A DNA stretch of 64,000 nt. It comes from Halomicrobium zhouii (lineage in GTDB: Archaea > Halobacteriota > Halobacteria > Halobacteriales > Haloarculaceae). Below, one piece after another: positions 1,066 to 23,480 of the stretch. The notes beneath the pieces are model-generated. The model was not told the origin of the DNA, did not search any database, and saw only the letters and a program-made list of their open reading frames with translations. How positions within the stretch are numbered: position 1 is the first letter of the stretch; every line of letters starts with the position of its first letter. The translations under genes were made by a program, and so were the position numbers. Location of the stretch: assembly GCF_900114435.1 (NCBI RefSeq), contig NZ_FOZK01000004.1, positions 62,001 through 126,000 of the forward strand. Reading direction: 5' to 3'.

Positions 1066-4000
1066 GTGCACGCACTCATGAGTCAGCTCACGCTTGGTCC
1101 AAGGCCCTACGACAATTCTGGGCTTTTCAATGGCGATTATCTCTACACCTCTGTCCCAGAATTTGATCTCTGGGACTGTGACGATGGGGCCCAGGAAGCC
1201 CTAGATTCCATTTCTGAACTCTACGAGGATGAAGGAGAATTTCTTGATGGATACAACGAGGATGAGCTTCGCGGAACATGGATCGATAAGATCCTTAGGA
1301 TACTCGGCTATGACTTTTTGAATGAAACTTCTATTCCCCGCGGCAATGGCCAAGTAGACTATGTCCTTTTCAATTCAGAGAGTGAACGTAGACAGTCTCA
1401 ACGATTTAATAAATCCGGAGACAGCAATGAAACGTTCAGACATTCATTAGGATTCGTTGAGGCGAAGCAGTGGGACGAGGACTTCGAACGAGAATATGTT
1501 GGGAGAGCATATCGAAACGCGTCTTCCCAGGTCTGTCACTACCTAGACCGAACACCGAGTAACGTCCGTTGGGGTATCCTAACGAACGGTCGCAAATGGC
1601 GCATCTATGGCAACCGAGAATACGAAACCCAGATCTACTACGAGGTTGACTTAGTAGAGCTTATCGCCAAAGGAGATCTGGAGGATTTCAAATATTTCTA
1701 CGTCTTCTTCGGGCCACATTCCCTGCGAGGGTCCATCGGCGATTCATTCCTCGATGAGGTTTGGACCGAGAGCGAGAATTACTCTGCTCAACTCGGGGAA
1801 GACCTTCAAGACAACGTATTCACTGCCTTGAGGCTTCTTGGAGAAGGACTCGTCGAATGTAATGACCTAGATATCGAACCCGGTGATGACGAAGAGCTGG
1901 CAGAATTGAAAGAGCAGTCTCTCGTCTACCTTTATCGGTTGATGTTCATCCTCTACGCGGAAGGAAAAGATCTCATTCGGCCTGAGGACCCTCATGCAAG
2001 GGATGAGTTTGAGGAACATTTCAGTCTTGAAGGAAGACGGAAAGATATCGTCGAAGAAGCCGGTGTCGGAGGGTTCTTCGAGGACTTTAGCACCCGTTCT
2101 CGTGACTATTGGGACCGCCTCAACCGGCTCTTCGAGCTAATCGATAAGGGAGACAAAGAGCTAGGGATTCCCGCATACAACGGCGGTCTATTCGATGCTG
2201 AGGAACACCAATTCCTTACCGAGAACCACGTGACGGACTATTACCTCGCACAGGTTATCTACTATCTATCAACCGCAATCAATGAGGACGGCGAATTAGT
2301 CTATGCTAACTACGCCGATTTGGATACCAGGCACCTTGGATCAGTCTACGAAGGGTTGCTTGAGCACCAATTTAAGATAGCAGAGGAGAAGATGGTGGCA
2401 ATCAGCGAGGACGGGGGGCAAGTTTGGAAGACCGCCGCCGAAATCGACGATGAGGAGCCTGTGGATACCGCCGATGAAAATAGCCTGTACGTTGTCAACG
2501 ATGAAGGAGAACGGCGTTCCACAGGTTCATACTACACGCCAGACTATATTGTCACGTACATCGTCGAGAATACCCTAGATCCGCTAATCGACGATATTCG
2601 TGAGTCGCTCATTGAGGATGGCTATGAACAGGGCTCTCACGAATACGCTGGTCAATTCTATGCTAGAGTCCTCGAACTGAACATTTTAGACCCAGCGATG
2701 GGTAGCGGGCATTTCCTCACTGCGGTCACCAGCTATCTTGCCGAGCAAGTGCAAGAAACTGCGCGAGACGCAGAACTCTCCAGTGTACTCAAGGAAGAAG
2801 TGATCCGGCGAGAAATAGCCAAAGAATGCATTTTCGGGGTCGATCTGAATGAAATGGCTGTTGAGTTGGCGAAGTTGTCGATGTGGTTGGAAACCCTAGC
2901 GAGTGATAAGCCCCTCACTTTCCTTGACCACCACTTCAAACAAGGGAATTCACTAATAGGGGCTGACCTCGATGAGATTGACGCCCTTCCTGGTCACAAA
3001 TCTGATGAAGATGAAATTGAAGAGGAGCAGTCTACCCTGAATCTATTCCAGAATACCGTCCAAGACACTATCAAAAAATACCTGAAGGAGTACGCAGAGT
3101 TCGAGGAAATCGGGGACGATACGATTGACGAGATCGAGAAGAAGAAGGAGAAATACGAGGGGCTTGAGCACGAGGAGATGCGGTTACGTCTTGAGCAGCT
3201 AGCGAACGTCTACACTGCCACTCACTTCGATGTAGAAGTTCCGGCTGACGCCTACGACAACCTGAAAAAGGCACTTAGCGGCGAGCATGAAACCTCTTGG
3301 GAGGAATTCACCGAGAAGAGTTGGTTCAAGGAAGCCGAGGCCATGGCCGAGAAACATGACTTCCTTCACTGGAAACTTGAATTCGTAGAGGCGTTCTTCA
3401 ACGGGAGTGCAAAACAATCAGAGAAGGGCTTTGACGCGGTTGTTGGCAATCCCCCCTACTTTAACCTCGAAATCGTCGACGATGAAGGAGTTAACGAGAC
3501 TCTGAAGTGGAATTACGACGACCTCTATGCTGGTAAGGCCGACATCCTCTACTTCTTTGTCGGGCTTGGCATCAACCTGATTCGAGACCGGGGAAACCTC
3601 GGTTACATTGTTTCCCGGTATTTCACCGAGGCTCACTTCGCCAAAGATTTCCGTGAATCTGTCTCGGACAACGCTGACATCCACGAAATCGTTGATTTCG
3701 GGAACAACCAAGTCTTTCCTGGAGTTGATACACTTACAGTCGTTCTAGAGCTTGCCAAGAACAGGCCTGTGGAGGACACAACAATAACGTATCTGTTGGA
3801 TGAGCTGGAGTCTGATGCACAGGAAATCCAGCAGACCATGGAGAAATTAACTGTTGGTGAAGAAACTGATATGGGAGGTCAGTATACTATCCCGGAGTCG
3901 TCCTTTGGTAGTGATCGATGGGGGATTCTATCGAAAACGCTTCTCGATATCAAGGACTCCATAGAAAGCAACGGGACCCGTCTCGGAGAGGACTATCGAA

Positions 4001-5313
4001 CAGGACAGGGAATGATGACTGGGTTGAATGAAGCCTTCACTGTCTCTGATGACGAAATATCAACGTGGGGCATAGAAGACGAGGTCCTAAAACCACTTGT
4101 CAAGAACGGAGACCTGCGGAAGTACCAGTACACCTCCCGAGGGTTACAATTGCTCTACTTGGAAAACAAGGACATCTCTAATTATCCGAATACGAAGGAG
4201 TACCTGAGTCAGTATAAACCAGATCTGGAGAATCGAGCAAAGGATAACGTGGAGTGGTATCGGTTTCTAAATCCGATTAACAAGGAGCTCTTCGAGAGTC
4301 CTGACGAGAAGATTATCTGCCCGTTCGTGGCTACAGAAAACCGCTTCATAGTAGACAGTGATGGGCTTTACAATGACGGCGGGGACGTGGAGGTCATTGT
4401 TCCGGACATCAATAATCTCCCTGACAACAGGTACCTTGTCTGTTTACTGAACTCTACACTCATAGAGTTCTATCACCTGCACCACGCGAAACTCAAGCGG
4501 GACGGGTTCTACGAGTACTTCGGGAATTCACTGCAAGACATCCCTCTGTGTCTTGAACCGGCTGACAGGGATGCTGACGTAACTGTGCTGCCGGATTCAG
4601 TAATTGCAGGTGCGGAAGACGATGATGTAGAATCTGTTCTGAGCCATGTGTATGATGTTATGGTTGAGAAGCATGAAAAGCGTAAAACGCTGAAGGAGGG
4701 GCTAGACCCGTTCAAATATCTCTCTCGTACAGCTTCGGTTAACGGATTGACCGATGTATTGAATGAAGAGATGAAGTATGGATCGAAGGTCAACGATATA
4801 GTCTTCGATAGCCGGCATGATATCACTGACTTGGAGCTAGTGGAGAAGAGCGATTCGGATGACTGGGTCCTACGCGGTCAGGTGAAGATGCGAGAAAAGG
4901 TGGGTGAGGACTATCAATGGAAACGTGATGACGAGGATGGGAACGGGATTGTCCGTCAGTGGGTGAAGCTCTATTCTTTCCCAGGCAACCTTGTGGATCA
5001 GAATCGAATGCGGAAATATCAGGTAGTGCTAGAGAACTACGACGATTTCGAGAATAAGTCTCCGAAGAATGGGTTCCCTGGTGGGAGGACTCGTACTGTG
5101 CAGGAGAAGTTAGAGAAAGCGACTCTGCCAGTTGTTGATAGTGTAGATATGGACCCGTATTTTGATTTAGAGGACGAAATAGATGAACTCGAAGCAGACA
5201 TCATGGAGATTTATCGCGGGGTAGACCAAATCGTGTACGACCTCTATGACATGAGTGATGAGGAAATTGACCGGGTAGAGGATGAGAACGGGGTTGGACT
5301 CGAACTTCAGTAG
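1066..5313 (+). CDS. Eco57I-like (type IIG) restriction-modification protein, nuclease plus N6-adenine methyltransferase
   Basis: A 1,415-residue protein. The N-terminal part holds a PD-(D/E)XK-like nuclease signature: D98 in GNGQVDYVLF, then E132-A-K134 in GFVEAKQW. The methyltransferase core has motif I (LDPAMGSGHFL, about residue 541) and the catalytic NPPY (about residue 795, VVGNPPYFNLE), the order of gamma-class N6-adenine methylases. The region from about 930 to 1,190 with TGQGMMTGLNEAF and the following segment fits an Eco57I-type target recognition domain. Such proteins cut and methylate DNA in one chain. Start is GTG 1066, or ATG 1078 (MSQLTLGPRP), which I slightly prefer. Codon use and GC are clearly lower than in neighbours, suggesting recent transfer. 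No hsdS, pglZ or drm partner is visible, so BREX or DISARM is not supported. Confidence 0.85.
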   Translation: MHALMSQLTLGPRPYDNSGLFNGDYLYTSVPEFDLWDCDDGAQEALDSISELYEDEGEFLDGYNEDELRGTWIDKILRILGYDFLNETSIPRGNGQVDYVLFNSESERRQSQRFNKSGDSNETFRHSLGFVEAKQWDEDFEREYVGRAYRNASSQVCHYLDRTPSNVRWGILTNGRKWRIYGNREYETQIYYEVDLVELIAKGDLEDFKYFYVFFGPHSLRGSIGDSFLDEVWTESENYSAQLGEDLQDNVFTALRLLGEGLVECNDLDIEPGDDEELAELKEQSLVYLYRLMFILYAEGKDLIRPEDPHARDEFEEHFSLEGRRKDIVEEAGVGGFFEDFSTRSRDYWDRLNRLFELIDKGDKELGIPAYNGGLFDAEEHQFLTENHVTDYYLAQVIYYLSTAINEDGELVYANYADLDTRHLGSVYEGLLEHQFKIAEEKMVAISEDGGQVWKTAAEIDDEEPVDTADENSLYVVNDEGERRSTGSYYTPDYIVTYIVENTLDPLIDDIRESLIEDGYEQGSHEYAGQFYARVLELNILDPAMGSGHFLTAVTSYLAEQVQETARDAELSSVLKEEVIRREIAKECIFGVDLNEMAVELAKLSMWLETLASDKPLTFLDHHFKQGNSLIGADLDEIDALPGHKSDEDEIEEEQSTLNLFQNTVQDTIKKYLKEYAEFEEIGDDTIDEIEKKKEKYEGLEHEEMRLRLEQLANVYTATHFDVEVPADAYDNLKKALSGEHETSWEEFTEKSWFKEAEAMAEKHDFLHWKLEFVEAFFNGSAKQSEKGFDAVVGNPPYFNLEIVDDEGVNETLKWNYDDLYAGKADILYFFVGLGINLIRDRGNLGYIVSRYFTEAHFAKDFRESVSDNADIHEIVDFGNNQVFPGVDTLTVVLELAKNRPVEDTTITYLLDELESDAQEIQQTMEKLTVGEETDMGGQYTIPESSFGSDRWGILSKTLLDIKDSIESNGTRLGEDYRTGQGMMTGLNEAFTVSDDEISTWGIEDEVLKPLVKNGDLRKYQYTSRGLQLLYLENKDISNYPNTKEYLSQYKPDLENRAKDNVEWYRFLNPINKELFESPDEKIICPFVATENRFIVDSDGLYNDGGDVEVIVPDINNLPDNRYLVCLLNSTLIEFYHLHHAKLKRDGFYEYFGNSLQDIPLCLEPADRDADVTVLPDSVIAGAEDDDVESVLSHVYDVMVEKHEKRKTLKEGLDPFKYLSRTASVNGLTDVLNEEMKYGSKVNDIVFDSRHDITDLELVEKSDSDDWVLRGQVKMREKVGEDYQWKRDDEDGNGIVRQWVKLYSFPGNLVDQNRMRKYQVVLENYDDFENKSPKNGFPGGRTRTVQEKLEKATLPVVDSVDMDPYFDLEDEIDELEADIMEIYRGVDQIVYDLYDMSDEEIDRVEDENGVGLELQ

Positions 5314-6111: not shown

Positions 6112-6122
6112 AGCAACGGTTG

Positions 6123-6437
6123 ATGGACGGGGACGAGTCAGCCACGCTCCTCCTGCGTGAACGGGAAAACTTCGATACCCGGTATGCAGAAGTCAAAGCG
6201 TGGGACGTCCCCGAATCCGACCGCTACCCCGACGGCGTAAAATACAGCTTCCAATACGGCGAGTTCGATGGCGACACCGTCTTCCGGTACGACAACTTCC
6301 CGGACCATCCCGATGCGCCACACCACCATAAGCACACGACGGATGGCAGTGTCGAAGGTGTGGAGTTCGACGGCGTTGCGGCGCTGTTTCGGCGGTTCAA
6401 ATCCGAGGTAAACGACCATGGCCACGACTGGAACTAA
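6123..6437 (+). CDS. TumE-family toxin-like protein (DUF6516)
   Basis: About 104 residues, acidic. The segments YPDGVKYSFQYGEFDGDTVF, RYDNFPDHPDAPHHHKH and GVEFDGVAALFRRFKSEV match the layout of haloarchaeal TumE/DUF6516 proteins (conserved YSF, RYDN, HHxH and a final helix). TumE is the toxin of TumE-TumA systems, described in bacteria. The frame also allows a TTG start three bases earlier; ATG 6123 is preferred because it lies at the expected distance from the TATA-like box. It overlaps the next gene by 20 bases, typical of a toxin-antitoxin operon. Toxicity here is inferred from family, not shown. Confidence 0.7.
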   Translation: MDGDESATLLLRERENFDTRYAEVKAWDVPESDRYPDGVKYSFQYGEFDGDTVFRYDNFPDHPDAPHHHKHTTDGSVEGVEFDGVAALFRRFKSEVNDHGHDWN

Positions 6438-6843
6438 CCCACCGTCTGAATCCGAACGCGTCCTGCACATCCGCTTCGAGCGGAGCGACAGCGACCGCAT
6501 CGAGGAAACGCTCCAGGCGATCGATGCCGGCGAAACGCCCGAACCGTACTTCGAATGTACGTTCCACGATTCTGACCAGCTGCATCAGGTGACGCGCCCG
6601 AAGAATCTGGAGTTGCTTCGGACTATCGCCCGGGAAGAGCCCGACGGCATTCGTGAGACTGCTCGTCTCGTCGACCGCGACGTCCGACAGGTCCACCGAA
6701 ACCTCACAGAACTCGAAGATCTCGGCCTGATCGACTTCGAAACGGATGGCCAGTCGAAGCACCCGCACGTCTGGTACGACACCATCGAAGTCGACCTCCC
6801 GCTACTCGATTCAGACGGCGAGTACGATACAGCAGACGCCTAA
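6418..6843 (+). CDS. HVO_A0114-like winged-helix protein, probable TumA-type antitoxin
   Basis: 141 residues. A winged HTH is visible at about residues 60-110: NLELLRTIAREEPDGIRETA, RDVRQVHRNLTELEDLGLID, then a wing ending in WYDTIEVDLPL. This is the HVO_A0114 family of haloarchaeal DNA-binding proteins, often encoded just after TumE-like genes. The start ATG 6418 lies inside the toxin gene, so translation is probably coupled. It is the natural candidate to bind the repeats at 6068-6111. Confidence 0.75.
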   Translation: MATTGTNPPSESERVLHIRFERSDSDRIEETLQAIDAGETPEPYFECTFHDSDQLHQVTRPKNLELLRTIAREEPDGIRETARLVDRDVRQVHRNLTELEDLGLIDFETDGQSKHPHVWYDTIEVDLPLLDSDGEYDTADA

Positions 6844-6928: not shown

Positions 6929-7413
6929 CTAGTGCAGTTCTCGCGTCCGTTCGTCGAGTTTCTTCAGCGCCGATTCGTGTTCGTCGACGCGTTGTTCGAG
7001 ATCGTCGAGTCGACTACCCATCTCCTCAACGACGTCGACCGCCTGACTGTTGTCATCGATATCTACTCGCGCCTGTGTCAACCCCATCTCTAGATCCGCG
7101 ATATCTTTGATGAATCGTATCTCGTCGTCCAATCTGAGAACATCCGACATCGCTTCGACGGCGCTCGTGAAGGGGACATCTACCTCATAACTGTAGTAGT
7201 TGCCTCGTGAGCCACTCCGGTTTTCGAGGGCGGACAGGATGCCCAGCATTCGCAAATCAGAGAGGTGGTTGTGAACGACCGCTGGGCAAGCGTGTCGGTC
7301 CCAGACGACTCACAGAGGGTCGTGTACGCTTCGTAGATACTACGGATCCGGCACGGTGGTACTTCCTTCGCTGCTTCCGTGACCACGGCCAGTAACGCGA
7401 GCCAGTCGTGCAT
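6929..7413 (-). pseudogene. Broken Orc1/Cdc6 C-terminal fragment (frameshift)
   Basis: Two minus-strand frames join into one winged-helix domain of the Orc1/Cdc6 C terminus. The first (from 7413) reads HDWLALLAVVTEAAKEVPP and RSIYEAYTTLCESSGTDTLA. The second continues VHNHLSDLRMLGILSALENR and YSYEVDVPFTSAVEAMSDVL. A single missing base near 7265 (CGGTCG-TTCAC, expected an extra G) accounts for the shift. The AAA+ half is absent: a stop lies in frame just before 7413. The tail (DLEQRVDEHESALKKLDERT) is a short coiled coil not usual for Orc1. The fragment ends next to iteron 7442-7466, so an older replication gene was probably cut at the origin. Confidence 0.7.
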
Positions 7414-7441
7414 CGTTAGCTCTCACATCTCATGGACAATT

Positions 7442-7466
7442 GAATTGCGGACGCCCCCGGGGGTGG
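7442..7466. repeat. Origin iteron B1 (GCGGAC-CCCGGGGG type)
   Basis: GAATTGCGGACGCCCCCGGG and following Gs, containing the palindrome CCCCCGGGGG. Related copies occur at 9935-9960 and 10092-10120, always after GAATTGCGGAC. The position between the Orc fragment and an ORB-like box suggests a replication or regulatory element. Confidence 0.55.
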
Positions 7467-7488
7467 TCCGGAGATTTGTCTCCGTGCA

Positions 7489-7516
7489 CCCCCTCCCCCC
7501 GTGATCGATGTGTAAA
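7489..7516 (+). repeat. ORB-like origin box 1
   Basis: CCCCTCCCCCCGTGATCGAT followed by GTGTAAA. The C-tract plus GTGATCGATGTG core recurs around the Orc1/Cdc6 gene in both orientations. Haloarchaeal origin recognition boxes carry such a G/C-string beside a conserved core. A G-rich stretch (gtggggtggg) follows at 7531-7540. Confidence 0.65.
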
Positions 7517-7840
7517 TCCCTACGAAAGGAGTGGGGTGGGAAGTGTGGGAACCGAGAGCTGGAGAGAGATACGGGTTCTGCCACAAGACTGAGTTTACTC
7601 GATCAGCCTTACGTCATAATCAGCAGTATATAATTCGAAAATTATATACATAACCACATCAAATAATATCCGTAGTAGACTCTTTCGAAGAAAAGGATAG
7701 GGATCTCAATTTACACTGAAAATCGATCCCGCGTTTAGACGGAACTTTGAGCGGTCTATTCGCCGAAACTGGATTGATGAAGATGGGTACTGTTCTTTTG
7801 GGATCTGCGTTCGGTCTCGAACACCGTACCCTCCATCCGA

Positions 7841-7864
7841 TACACATCGATCACGGGGGGAGGG
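7841..7864 (-). repeat. ORB-like origin box 2
   Basis: TACACATCGATCACGGGGGG plus AGGG, the inverted form of box 1. It lies downstream of the Orc1/Cdc6 gene. Confidence 0.65.
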
Positions 7865-7993
7865 AGTTCAAGAAAAATGAGACACGATCTGCCCCCGTCA
7901 CCCCTCAGAAAGGTATTCTACACCGCTTTCGACCTCTCGCTGCTCGTTTCCAGTCGATGTTGAGCGTGATGGGTGCCCGTACTGGAGCAGTGG

Positions 7994-8021
7994 TTTACAC
8001 ATCGATCACGGGGGGAGGGGG
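7994..8021 (-). repeat. ORB-like origin box 3
   Basis: TTTACACATCGATCACGGGG continuing GGAGGGGG, inverted relative to box 1 and only 32 bases from the end of the Orc1/Cdc6 gene. Boxes 1 and 2/3 face each other across about 330-480 bases with AT-rich stretches (7620-7665), a plausible unwinding element. Confidence 0.65.
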
Positions 8022-8052
8022 TCGAACAGTACGTCTCACAGAGACTGCGATC

Positions 8053-9453
8053 TCACTTCGTATGAAATTCCTGTAGTTGGGCATCGACGATAGTCTGGAG
8101 AAGCTCCTCTTGTTCGGCCACAGTTTCGAGCCGGGTGTCCTCGACGATTCGCTCCATTATCGCTACGGGATCGCCCGTGAACGTGAATTCCATGTACATT
8201 CCGCCTCCACGCCCTCGACTCTTCCGAGCGGTCGAGACCAGACCATACGTGGAGAGCTCTTTGACGTATTTGACGTAGGTCTCGCGAGTCATCTGGTCAG
8301 CATCGAGTTCATCAGTAATCCAGCGATAGACGCTGAAACCGACCGGACTCGGAACAGAACACTGGGACGGATCCGAGTAGCGGGTGACGGCTGCTGTGGC
8401 GTACAGCGATATTTTCTTCTGCGTCGTGAGTCCATCGACGAGTTTCAGCGAGCGGTCCTTGTCGATTTCCTCTTGGGACTTGCGAACGTGGGCTTCGGTA
8501 ACTCGATCGTCGCCCCGTTCGTCGGCGAGGTCACCGGCGCCACGAAAGAGGTCGATCGCCTTCCGGGCGTCACCGTGACTCTGTGCAGCGAAGGCCGCCA
8601 CGAGTGGTATCACGTCATCTTCGAGCGCATCCTGGCGGAAGGCATCACGGCGATTATCGAGGATTTCACGCAACTGCGTGGCATCGTAGTCAGGAAAGTA
8701 GACGTCCCGTGGATTGAACGAACTCTCGGCACGGCCGTCGATATCTTCCATAAACTTCGGGTCGTTCGTCAACGCAGCGACCGACACGCGGCCTTCGATA
8801 GCGTTCGTGGTACTAGCTCTGGACAGCTGGTACAGGAGTCTCGAATAGGCGGGTTCGTCGATTACGCGGCGGCCGGACAGAAGGTCGATCTCATCGAGGA
8901 TGAAGATGACGGAGTCGTAGTGCTCGTTGACGAGGTGGTACAGACGTCGATACTTGCGCTTCGTAGAGACGCCCGTCTCTGGGACACCAACTTCTGCGTC
9001 GACGTCTGTTGCAACCGTCTGAATGAGTTCGTAGACCGCTTGGTCAAGCGTATTGATTGGCTGGCAGTTGATGGACACCACACCGAAACATTTGCCCTTC
9101 GAATGGCAGAGGTCGATAATCTGTTGGGTGACTGCCCCGATGATGAGTGACTTCCCCGTTCCAGCAGGACCATATAGTAACATATTCGGTGGCCGATTTC
9201 CGTGGAGAGTTGGCTTCAGATACGAGACGACAGAGTCGAGTTGGTCATCGCGACCAACGATGCGCTCCTCGTCGATGATCGTGTTCGGTTCGACGAGATC
9301 TCGATCGGCAAAGACCGAGACCATTTCATCCTCGTCGAGCATCTCCCGGATCGACTGTTTGGATTCAGCCCCAATTGTTTCTCCATCCTGATCTGGGTGT
9401 TTTTCTCTTCCCCGTAGCGACTGATCCATCCCTTCTTGATCACTGCCACGCAT
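8053..9453 (-). CDS. orc: Orc1/Cdc6 family replication initiator
   Basis: 466 residues, full length for the family. The AAA+ domain has Walker A LLYGPAGTGKS, Walker B VIFILDEIDLL, sensor 1 VAALTNDPKF and sensor 2 area SHGDARKAIDLFRGAG. The C-terminal winged helix (about 345-440) ends KELSTYGLVSTARKSRGRGG, whose basic wing would contact origin DNA. It binds ORB sites and loads the MCM helicase. ORB-like boxes flank the gene on both sides (7489-8021 and 9594-10830), so gene and origin form one replicon module. Alternative start at Met9 (MDQSLRGREK). Confidence 0.92.
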   Translation of the reverse strand: MRGSDQEGMDQSLRGREKHPDQDGETIGAESKQSIREMLDEDEMVSVFADRDLVEPNTIIDEERIVGRDDQLDSVVSYLKPTLHGNRPPNMLLYGPAGTGKSLIIGAVTQQIIDLCHSKGKCFGVVSINCQPINTLDQAVYELIQTVATDVDAEVGVPETGVSTKRKYRRLYHLVNEHYDSVIFILDEIDLLSGRRVIDEPAYSRLLYQLSRASTTNAIEGRVSVAALTNDPKFMEDIDGRAESSFNPRDVYFPDYDATQLREILDNRRDAFRQDALEDDVIPLVAAFAAQSHGDARKAIDLFRGAGDLADERGDDRVTEAHVRKSQEEIDKDRSLKLVDGLTTQKKISLYATAAVTRYSDPSQCSVPSPVGFSVYRWITDELDADQMTRETYVKYVKELSTYGLVSTARKSRGRGGGMYMEFTFTGDPVAIMERIVEDTRLETVAEQEELLQTIVDAQLQEFHTK

Positions 9454-9593
9454 ATTTCTTTCTACAGCCCGATTCTGTTAAAATATTCGGCTTCGTCGAT
9501 TTGTATCTGGGCGCAACAGGCTCTCTAATGACTATAATCATTAGATCCGTCCCTCAATGATAGAACCGAGATCGAAGTATATTCAATATATGA

Positions 9594-9616
9594 CTCTCCG
9601 TCATCGAAGTGAAAAA
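9594..9616 (+). repeat. Degenerate ORB-like box
   Basis: CTCTCCGTCATCGAAGTGAA plus AAA: a weaker copy of the GTGATCGATGTGAAA core, directly before the better copy at 9630. Two boxes in the same orientation upstream of orc suggest cooperative binding. Confidence 0.4.
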
Positions 9617-9629
9617 TCGTTTCAGCACA

Positions 9630-9653
9630 CTCCCCGTGATCGATGTGAAAAAC
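9630..9653 (+). repeat. ORB-like origin box 4
   Basis: CTCCCCGTGATCGATGTGAA followed by AAA, then a G-rich stretch (ggaaaggggcg). Same core as boxes 1-3, with a shorter C-tract. Confidence 0.6.
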
Positions 9654-9730
9654 TTGGAAAGGGGCGATAGGGACGTGGATTGTTTGAGAACGAGGGGAAT
9701 AGGGAGCCATCACAAACAATCTCTACAACC

Positions 9731-9750
9731 TCACCACCGCTTCCGAAGCT
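9731..9750 (+). repeat. Iteron C/D family copy (CACCACC-TTCCG)
   Basis: TCACCACCGCTTCCGAAGCT. Member of a dispersed family with core CACC-CGTTTCCG seen in both orientations at 9801, 10273, 10492, 10535, 10660 and 10746. Confidence 0.45.
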
Positions 9751-9800
9751 TCGTTAGATCTGCTACTTTGGGGGAATCTCCCCATGTACCTAGGATATAC

Positions 9801-9820
9801 GACGGAAACGTGGGGTGGGT
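9801..9820 (-). repeat. Iteron C/D family copy
   Basis: GACGGAAACGTGGGGTGGGT. The same 20 bases recur at 10276-10295, and as GACGGAAACGTGGGGCGGGT at 10746-10765; the reverse complement matches the CACC-CGTTTCCG core. Confidence 0.55.
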
Positions 9821-9934
9821 TACGATACAGTTCGATATCGGGTGTCCGCCAGTCGCAGTCTTGGGAGACTACGTCGGCTTGGTGACTATCTGCTCCAGAA
9901 TTATCTCGTGTTTACTAGGTCGCGAGGGTATTCG

Positions 9935-9960
9935 AATTGCGGACAACCCCGGGGGCCGGG
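9935..9960. repeat. Origin iteron B2
   Basis: GAATTGCGGACAACCCCGGG plus GGCCGG; two bases differ from B1 inside the GC palindrome. Confidence 0.55.
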
Positions 9961-10091
9961 GTGATCGGGTCAAGTCGATACCAAGCGTATATTCTGGTAA
10001 TCCCCTCGCCTAGATCCAGCGACGATGGAGTTCCTTCCTTCGATTTCGTGAGACAACTCGTGATCTACAGAACGAAAGTCATCCTCGAAGA

Positions 10092-10120
10092 GGAATTGCG
10101 GACGCCCCCGGGGGCGGGCC
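10092..10120. repeat. Origin iteron B3
   Basis: GGAATTGCGGACGCCCCCGG continuing GGGCGGGCC; matches B1 almost exactly over 22 bases. Confidence 0.55.
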
Positions 10121-10272
10121 CTACGTAAGAACTGAGGCCCAGCGTTGTCGTCACTAGTGGAAGGAGTACACTTCGGCCACAGGACGGCTGTCAGAAGTCC
10201 GGCGTTGCAGAGCGAACGGGACCGTCCTATTCACGAAGAGAACTGCAATCGAGTCGTCGGCAGTTCGCGGAA

Positions 10273-10297
10273 ACGACGGAAACGTGGGGTGGGTGGG
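10273..10297 (-). repeat. Iteron C/D family copy
   Basis: ACGACGGAAACGTGGGGTGG then GTGGG, an exact copy of the 9801 element with one more GGGT unit. Confidence 0.55.
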
Positions 10298-10374
10298 TAG
10301 AGAGAGTCCTTCTCTTCGAGGGGGAGTAATAAGAATCGAGGGGACGCGTGCTCGACTACTAATCGACGTCTCAC

Positions 10375-10406
10375 TACACCCCTCCCCCCGTGATCGATGT
10401 GAAAAA
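10375..10406 (+). repeat. ORB-like origin box 5
   Basis: ACACCCCTCCCCCCGTGATC then GATGTGAAAAA. Together with box 1 this is the best match to the consensus, again followed by a G-rich stretch (gaaggggtggg). Confidence 0.65.
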
Positions 10407-10491
10407 CCATGCGAAGGGGTGGGCAGGAACGGAGGTGATTCGAGAACTAGGGAGATATGTCACCCGCCACAGCCATTCTCTACCATCCCCT

Positions 10492-10688
10492 AACCACCGT
10501 TTCCGGAGCTTCCGAAGCTCCACTGTTTATTAATCACCCACACACCACCATTTCCGAAGCTTTGTCGTGGCTCAGCCGTCTTGGGAAAGTTGGAGCTGCG
10601 CTCGGGATTGTTCTCTGACTGTTGCATCTTCACGTGGTGCCACTGCTTCTGTTTGAGGAAAGCTCCGGAAACGATGGCGTGTGTGGTG
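10492..10688. repeat. Inverted-repeat block of C/D iterons
   Basis: Three copies: AACCACCGTTTCCGGAGCTT (10492-10511, plus), CACACACCACCATTTCCGAA and following GCTT (10535-10562, plus), and AAGCTCCGGAAACGATGGCG then TGTGTGGTG (10660-10688, minus). The last two face each other over about 97 bases and could pair or present sites in opposite orientation. Confidence 0.5.
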
Positions 10689-10745
10689 CCGATCTACTCA
10701 ACGTTTTACGGGTAATCGGAATCGTCCCGATGTTCTCAGAATATA

Positions 10746-10766
10746 GACGGAAACGTGGGGCGGGTG
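10746..10766 (-). repeat. Iteron C/D family copy
   Basis: GACGGAAACGTGGGGCGGGT, one mismatch from the copy at 9801. Confidence 0.5.
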
Positions 10767-10808
10767 CGTAGGAATACCGATCGAGTGAGAAGGCCAATCC
10801 CCGCGGAG

Positions 10809-10830
10809 TTACACTTCGATGACGGGGGGT
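10809..10830 (-). repeat. ORB-like origin box 6 (outer)
   Basis: TTACACTTCGATGACGGGGG plus GT, inverted relative to boxes 4 and 5 with two changes in the core. It seems to close the right side of the origin. Confidence 0.5.
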
Positions 10831-11449
10831 CTGGTTCACCGCATTGTCGGTGAATCGTACTTAGCGGGCCGAACGCATCGATCATCACTTGAAAAAGTGG
10901 TGTGTCTTTGCCCAACCCGCATAGGTTCTATCCCTGAAACCAGCGATTGCAATTTCCCTCTATCCGCGGGGTGGAGTTTTAGCTTCAGTAGGTCCGAGTG
11001 AGTCCTCTGATCATGGCTCGACCCATGTTACCGGACCCAATGACACTAACAGATGCCATATATTACAAATATTAGCACGAACAGATATAGCTTCTATGGT
11101 ATGGAATGAATATAATAGTATAAATGAATGTGAAAATTGTAACGTAGTCGCGTACGATCATCCGGGGATCAATAGTCCCTGACCGCTTAAACCGCCAAGA
11201 AGCCGAAATCTGTCGGCGCTATCATAGGCCGCCGTCTCACCTGTGAGTTGCCTGCAAGGATATCTGATTTGAGATAGAGGGCCATTACTACAGTTTGACG
11301 TGTGCTGCAGATTGATGTCGGATGTCTATTTGTCCACAACAGAGAATCAATTTTGATGTGTATCGAAATTTGGATCAGGCAATATCGGATTTAAGTATGA
11401 AATGTTGGCATAGAAATATTAAATAAATTTGCGACACGAATAATATGCT

Positions 11450-12376
11450 ATGAATCAATATAAGAATATCGTCCTGTTTCTCCTCCTCGGAGTGATCTGG
11501 GGTGGGGCATATCCCGCAATCAAAATCGGACTCAACTCAATCCCCCCCGTCCTTTACGCAGCGGTTCGGTATGACATTGCGGCTCTCGTTATGCTCGGGT
11601 ACATCATCGCCTTTAGAGAGTACTGGCGACCTCGGACCCGTGATGACTGGATCAACGCCACAATAGGGGGTGTACTGATTATTAGCGCCTACAACGCATT
11701 CCTCTTCATCGGCGAAACTACTGTCCCGAGCGCTATCGCTGCAATCCTCGTTGGGCTGATGCCTATCTTCACTACCGTTTTCTCCGGAGTGCTGCTCTCC
11801 ACGGAAGACCTCAAACCCACCGGAATTCTTGGCGTCATCCTTGGATTCATTGGCATACTTGCTATCTCACGCCCCGATCCGTCGAATCTACTCGCAAGCA
11901 GTATTATCGGACAGGCATTTGTTCTCCTCGCCGCCGCGAGCATGGCTATCGGAAGTGTACTAACCGAGAGGTTCGATGCCGATCAGCCTGCGATTACGAT
12001 GGAAGCGTGGTCAATGGCCATCAGTGCGGTACTCCTCCACCTTGCGGCGCTGGGATCGGGTGAGGCATTAGCGACCGTTCGGTGGACAAACTCGCTGATC
12101 GCCATGATACTGTACCTCTCTCTACTCTCAAGCGCTGTTGCGTATTTCATCTACTTTCACTTGCTTGACCATCTCGGGGCATTTGAAATGAACTTCATAG
12201 CTTACGCAGCAGCGGTTTTCGGCGCTCTTATTGGATGGCTTGTTCTCAACGAGCAGATTACTGTGTATACCCTCACCGGATACGGGCTAATACTCACTGG
12301 CTTCGTTCTCCTCAAGAAGGACGAGATCCGCCAAGAACTCACCGAGGCCGGTTCTACCCAGGCCTCCTCTGACTAA
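11450..12376 (+). CDS. EamA/DMT-family transporter
   Basis: 308 residues with about ten hydrophobic segments arranged as two EamA repeats; the first opens LLLGVIWGGAYPAIKIGLNS, a hallmark of the drug/metabolite transporter family, and the second ends LNEQITVYTLTGYGLILTGF. Likely exports a small metabolite across the cell membrane; the substrate cannot be told. An AT-rich promoter (aaatattaaataaattt, about 11,414-11,430) lies about 25 bases before ATG. It sits alone beside the origin region. Confidence 0.85.
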   Translation: MNQYKNIVLFLLLGVIWGGAYPAIKIGLNSIPPVLYAAVRYDIAALVMLGYIIAFREYWRPRTRDDWINATIGGVLIISAYNAFLFIGETTVPSAIAAILVGLMPIFTTVFSGVLLSTEDLKPTGILGVILGFIGILAISRPDPSNLLASSIIGQAFVLLAAASMAIGSVLTERFDADQPAITMEAWSMAISAVLLHLAALGSGEALATVRWTNSLIAMILYLSLLSSAVAYFIYFHLLDHLGAFEMNFIAYAAAVFGALIGWLVLNEQITVYTLTGYGLILTGFVLLKKDEIRQELTEAGSTQASSD

Positions 12377-23046: not shown

Positions 23047-23280
23047 GTGGGGCAATCGAACCTAGCTCAGCCGAACTGACTCAAGCGTATCTCGGTACGT
23101 CTCCTCGTTTCCACTCTTCCCCCACCGATCTCCGTCGTACGCGGGTTCACAGACTCAGTCATATATGGGCCGCTATCGACTCGCCACCCCAAGCGTTCGA
23201 ACGCCTGAGAACGCCTCGCGCGAGATAAAATCTCGAAATTGAATTGGCGTAGCGGTCATGTAGCTGCCGAATTCGAGGTA

Positions 23281-23304
23281 TTTACAGATCGATAACGGGG
23301 GGTG
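23281..23304 (-). repeat. Isolated ORB-like box
   Basis: TTTACAGATCGATAACGGGG plus GGTG: the same core as the boxes around the Orc gene with two changes, but 12 kb away. It may be a relic of another origin. Confidence 0.4.
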
Positions 23305-23480
23305 TTGTCGGGTTCTGATTGGGCCGAAACCGGAATCCAAGTCCAAGCGAGAAACGCCGATCAATTTCACCCAAGTAGTTGGCTTATGCGTTGTCGATTG
23401 GGTAAGATGAATATATGGCGAGCGACGACCGCCCCGGGTGTATCACCTAAGTGGATAGCTCGCAACGGTTTCAGTATCCG

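Follow-up and report, generated by a model that had tools for sequence, protein, structure and literature searches.

The locus around a single orc1/cdc6 gene of Halomicrobium zhouii (contig NZ_FOZK01000004.1) is probably a mosaic plasmid origin, in which an A-type unit is set into a broken R-type origin and accompanied by ORBs of other initiators. Judged by their sequences, these foreign sites would belong to initiators from other plasmid families, at least three and probably four in number. A matrix scan, using class matrices made from loci selected partly by motif, yielded seven A, three B, four C, three D, and one R site near the gene, hereafter orc-A. With 260 of the contig's 260.2 kb scanned, all B, C, D, and R sites were confined to positions ~7441-10907, i.e., within 3.5 kb, of the window (the whole analyzed stretch of 64,000 nucleotides). 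The chance expectation within the window, derived from 100 shuffles, was 0 for B, 0 for D, and 0.41 for C. Whole-genome searches recovered good D and C matches, as well as B matches with up to three mismatches, at this locus only.

The A-type core and the extra repeat classes

The intact orc-A gene (8053-9453, - strand) encodes a protein of 466 aa with AAA+, Cdc6 lid, and C-terminal winged helix (Pfam), falling within the A clade of the Orc tree with a support of 100/100. Past its 3' end, the A-class ORBs at 7489-7518 (+) and 7837-7866 (-) form the left and right arm of an inverted core pair with a distance of 348 bp, enclosing an AT-rich stretch (7600-7720; A+T up to 0.77 in 60 bp) as likely unwinding element. 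Further A-class ORBs are located at 7992-8021 (-), 9588-9617 (+, variant), 9624-9653 (+, upstream of orc-A), 10378-10407 (+, ~0.94 kb upstream of orc-A), and 10806-10835 (-, variant core). The A-type ORB recurs at 43 loci having a similar orc, their typical layout being two ORBs in gene direction and one inverted past the orc 3' end; the box ~0.94 kb upstream is present in Natrinema and Haloterrigena relatives, too. The inverted A pair (+ .. -) is spaced by 339-368 bp in 40 of the 41 relatives tested, which are AT-rich at the matching place between the paired boxes. With an intact A-clade Orc beside the repeats and inverted G-run ORBs flanking an AT stretch, the core has the make-up of an ordinary origin from a widespread plasmid family, to which an orc of pNRC200 belongs. 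The GC skew was uninformative for locating the active origin, its range not exceeding that of block shuffles (p about 0.25). An isolated ORB-like site of the A class (23279-23308, -, score about 34) lies intergenically at a distance of 12.4 kb from the origin.

An earlier note on this DNA had already taken the locus for an Orc1/Cdc6 origin with ORB-like boxes in both orientations surrounding one orc1/cdc6 gene, which the intact Orc1/Cdc6 and the ORBs confirm. Its count of six boxes plus a weak one shifts to five boxes with the exact GTGATCGATGTG core (7502+, 7844-, 7999-, 9637+, and 10391+) and the two variants starting at 9588 and 10806, seven in total. The three GAATTGCGGAC-NN-CCCCGGGGG elements (class B) it described are present, but all of them on the + strand instead of in both orientations. 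Seven GGAAACG-type elements do exist behind its "CACC-CGTTTCCG" family, which however splits into two classes, C (AAAGCTCCGGAAACGGTGGAGGG) and D (ACGACGGAAACGTGGGGTGGGTG); the proposed mixture of orientations holds for C, whereas all D elements are on +. The interval under consideration at that time (7442-10830) ended before the R element and left out the orc stump, both described below.

The extra families had been regarded as having no obvious role and as differing from ORBs; their linkage identifies them as ORBs that go with other Orc1/Cdc6 families. The accompanying suggestion of extra DNA-binding proteins is retained in this form, while no observation requires the special DNA structure offered alongside. 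The proposed check on relatives showed strong B sites at one and strong C or D sites at none of 43 similar-Orc loci; by this criterion, an A-type origin does not need B, C, or D. General components of A-type origins were thereby ruled out, as was a single new repeat family, since the elements split by Orc clade.

Initiator families of the foreign sites

For the assignment of sites to initiators, the ORB classes were mapped on a tree of 53 Orcs and compared with shuffles. One change each sufficed for A, B, C, D, and R, a total that equals the minimum possible and was unmatched by any shuffle; the support of the D clade is moderate (85/66), and some joins in the tree involve long branches. On sequence grounds, ORB class follows the Orc tree, the pairing of site and protein being predicted by linkage.

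The ORB class of the Orc-B family occurs at 7442-7463, 9934-9955, and 10093-10114 (all exact copies on +), with each element ending in a GC-rich palindrome. B elements were present at eight of eight loci encoding an Orc with ≥83% identity to Orc-B, each hosting at least three copies in both orientations, and at none of six loci with an Orc 48-56% identical (chance rate 0.1 per 66 kb). Exact B elements were detected in 19 of 391 haloarchaeal genomes, mostly adjoining Orc-B genes. On a Salinibaculum plasmid, four B elements flank the orc gene taken as reference for Orc-B, ~25% identical to that of the window. At the window, the B-class ORBs are present in one orientation, and an Orc-B gene was not found in this genome (best match 42%, partial). 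In viral contigs, neither B nor D had an exact match. Arrays of B in both orientations were observed at L177, L178, and L195 with no orc detected within 1.5 kb, making them possible orphan origins. At L184 (474-696), a broken Orc-C/R-like gene stretch adjoins an Orc-B origin with B sites, which, going by the sequence, is another instance of orc wreckage by an origin.

Matrix scan and linkage assigned the C element to the Orc-C family, with copies at 9729-9753 (-, worn), 10489-10513 (-), 10540-10564 (-), and 10658-10682 (+). The nearest likeness of the copy at 10540 is a C site at the pHTUR04 R-type origin (93% over 29 nt). Elsewhere, C sites flank a separate orc clade (Orc-C), and L145, a locus chosen by its Orc rather than by the motif, likewise bears them. 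Instead of C ORBs adjoining an Orc-C gene, the window holds the above four C sites, of which two are worn, and a protein search of this genome did not find an Orc-C gene.

The D element, by the same approach the ORB class of the Orc-D family, is represented on + by two exact copies (9796-9823 and 10270-10297) and a weak one (10741-10768). D was found in 105 of 391 haloarchaeal genomes compared with a single control match, and an orc gene lies within 1.5 kb of D at 26 of 29 motif-fetched loci, the window's own locus excluded. Of the features of an Orc-D origin, the window shows the D-class ORBs and lacks both the inverted D pair ~390 bp apart and the Orc-D gene.

Two remnants point to the Orc-R family, whose full-length members have an ORB of their own, TTCACTTGnAAnnGTGGTGTGT. 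The R element at 10881-10907 (+, score 35) is the sole R match in the contig. At the opposite end, a protein search gave a short Orc match at 7100-7279, which extended to a stump at 7091-7428 (-) that corresponds to residues about 292-404 of 408, contains one stop, and is frameshifted at 7276. This C-terminal part of an orc is spread over two frames, being 84% and 71% identical to a Haloplanus aerogenes Orc, and its nucleotide likeness to the Orc-R family stops at 7429, 12 bp short of the first B site. Where an Orc-R origin has an intact Orc-R with R ORBs on both sides, the window has a single R site and the frameshifted stump; with the stump at one end and the R site at the other, the A-type unit is bracketed by R remains. 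No further orc fragments were found in the upstream flank (9454-11450).

An intact Orc of the B, C, D, or R clades was not found in the genome (six contigs, 99.55% complete). It encodes five resident Orcs, adjoined by other repeats or by none, and the four besides Orc-A fall outside the A, B, C, D, and R clades. That resident Orcs are the cognates of B, C, or D was set aside as their adjoining repeats differ, with an exception left for the protein C4_193k on D. On the same contig, ~124 kb off (L070, 8400-10400), a pair of divergent orc genes is separated by an intergenic region that carries two additional classes of ORB-like repeats, CTAACTCGGAATCAGGTGTGT and TTCATTTCGCACACGGGGTGTGT, by sequence a second multi-class origin.

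Assembly of the locus and state of the foreign sites

In the mosaic model, Orc-A would bind the A-class ORBs, open the AT-rich DNA enclosed by the inverted pair (7489 and 7837), and load the helicase, as expected from its family and the conserved layout. This unit would be embedded in what is left of an R-type origin, namely the frameshifted stump and one ORB, while the ORBs of Orc-B, Orc-C, and Orc-D would have been gathered in the upstream flank, presumably via recombination between plasmids. A duplication is visible in this flank, the stretch 9632-9752, which comprises an A and a C box, being repeated at 10386-10512 (both +; alignment score 78, with shuffles reaching no more than 29). A long plasmid segment as source of the flank was set aside, as the search for matching plasmid DNA returned short matches only. 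Mixed origins recur in a small survey: D sites were also found at four A-like origins and one origin near C4_197k, a B site at one A-type origin elsewhere, and at least seven C sites at the pHTUR04 R-type origin. At most such D sites, the likeness to true D origins starts at the first D site, as if the mixed origins had been joined there. A point against the mosaic model is that the flanks of the window's B and D sites are unlike those of the sampled cognate origins.

The foreign sites would be idle here, as none of their initiators was found in the genome. The chances are about even that they are pure relics, i.e., inert and decaying leftovers of former origins or plasmid fusions. Such decay is in line with the broken orc stump, with the failure to find an intact cognate Orc in the genome, and with the single orientation of B and D, for which the inverted partner of their own origins is missing. 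Furthermore, one D site is worn and the C sites are more worn than B and D, two of them retaining cognate-like flanks. Less easily explained by decay are the three B and two D sites, which score at or near the cognate median although their flanks (120 bp) resemble cognate flanks no more than shuffles do; cognate flanks match one another well. If the flanks were lost while the sites stayed, the latter may have been preserved by selection. The same pattern of sites and flanks is expected if they were transferred from an origin outside the sample that had different flanks.

Since the B and the two D sites match intact cognate sites, they could still bind initiators supplied by another plasmid. 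This leads to a reading as decoys or alternative starts, in which the foreign ORBs bind the initiators of co-resident or incoming plasmids, thereby lowering the replication of those plasmids (incompatibility) or allowing the initiators to fire this origin. The intactness of the B and D sites and the recurrence of mixed ORB sets at other origins speak for it, and such a decoy role is possible given that a haloarchaeal Cdc6 can act in trans, an ORB cluster can reduce origin activity, and an origin can render a plasmid incompatible (PMC3936714). However, no cognate Orc was found in this genome, and neither B nor D forms an inverted pair around an AT-rich core, which renders firing by Orc-B or Orc-D unlikely. 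We regard relics as more likely than this role, to which we assign a rather low probability. Relics and decoys are both readings of the foreign sites inside the mosaic model, so that their likelihoods overlap with that of the model. It appears slightly less probable still that selection keeps the foreign ORBs as decoys or alternative starts against the initiators of rival plasmids; if true, one origin would be a multi-family incompatibility (or host-range) device consisting of DNA alone, without any gene.

Unlikely, in turn, is a use of the sites in trans by resident Orcs, for example of D by C4_193k or of C and D by the oriC1-type Orc. C4_193k is sister to the D clade, and C and D share a GGAAACG-plus-G-run core, related to GAAACGAAGGGG in this genome's oriC1-type repeat, which we take to resemble the classic archaeal ORB core. 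Against this, C4_193k is adjoined by a different repeat with seven copies, and its identity of about 50% to D-type Orcs falls short of the 80% where ORB families cohere (Wu et al. 2012, PMC3528665). Binding of a general non-Orc factor, for which UBP at the ucm motif of Sulfolobus origins provides a precedent (PMC12141716), or an effect through DNA structure, as the GC-rich palindrome at the B end might suggest, is highly improbable, as every class tracks one Orc clade, a segregation not expected for a general factor, and the genome matches of B and D mostly adjoin orc genes.

Relation to known origins and neighboring genes

With A-type origins (e.g., beside VNG_RS11490, Halobacterium NRC-1 pNRC200, L147), the window has the Orc clade, the ORB, and the inverted pair with AT-rich core past the orc 3' end in common; these relatives are without B, C, D, or R sites, except one with B, whereas the window has all four. 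Two different ORB-like elements near one orc were described for Halorubrum lacusprofundi Hla_3512 and Haloquadratum walsbyi HQ2959A (Wu et al. 2012, PMC3528665). The window shares this feature of more than one ORB type at one orc. Those loci hold two types, read as two candidate origins, in contrast to the window with five classes, each given an Orc clade, plus a broken orc. Two ORB types per orc gene are thus already published, while five classes look new. By eye, the common element TAACAGCGGAAACAGTGGGGTGGGGGGGT of that study resembles D, differing by one inserted base and other changes. The oriC2 of Haloarcula hispanica comprises an ORB-rich oriC2D region, whose ORBs are sites of the same Cdc6E, which they titrate (PMC3936714); as in the window, the extra ORBs lie beyond the core on one side of the orc, but most of the window's extra sites belong to other initiator families. 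The oriC2 of Sulfolobus solfataricus is bound by several Orc1/Cdc6 paralogs resident in the cell (reviewed in PMC5333045). Both are single origins with sites for multiple Orc paralogs, predicted ones in the window, the difference being that intact cognate Orcs were not found in the window's genome.

Haloarchaea harbor numerous Orc1/Cdc6 paralogs and plasmids. This locus, which ties four extra repeat classes to Orc clades, relates to the broader question of how their origins and initiators separate, swap, or compete. It suggests that origins are put together by recombination, down to single ORBs, and raises the idea that foreign sites influence the competition between plasmids. Moreover, it represents a ready construct for asking if a non-cognate ORB influences replication or compatibility.

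Beside the origin, a TumE-like toxin gene is followed by an HVO_A0114-type winged-helix gene (6120-6843, +), likely forming a toxin-antitoxin pair. A large restriction-modification protein with Eco57I-like methylase and TaqI-like specificity domains is encoded nearby (1066-5313, +).
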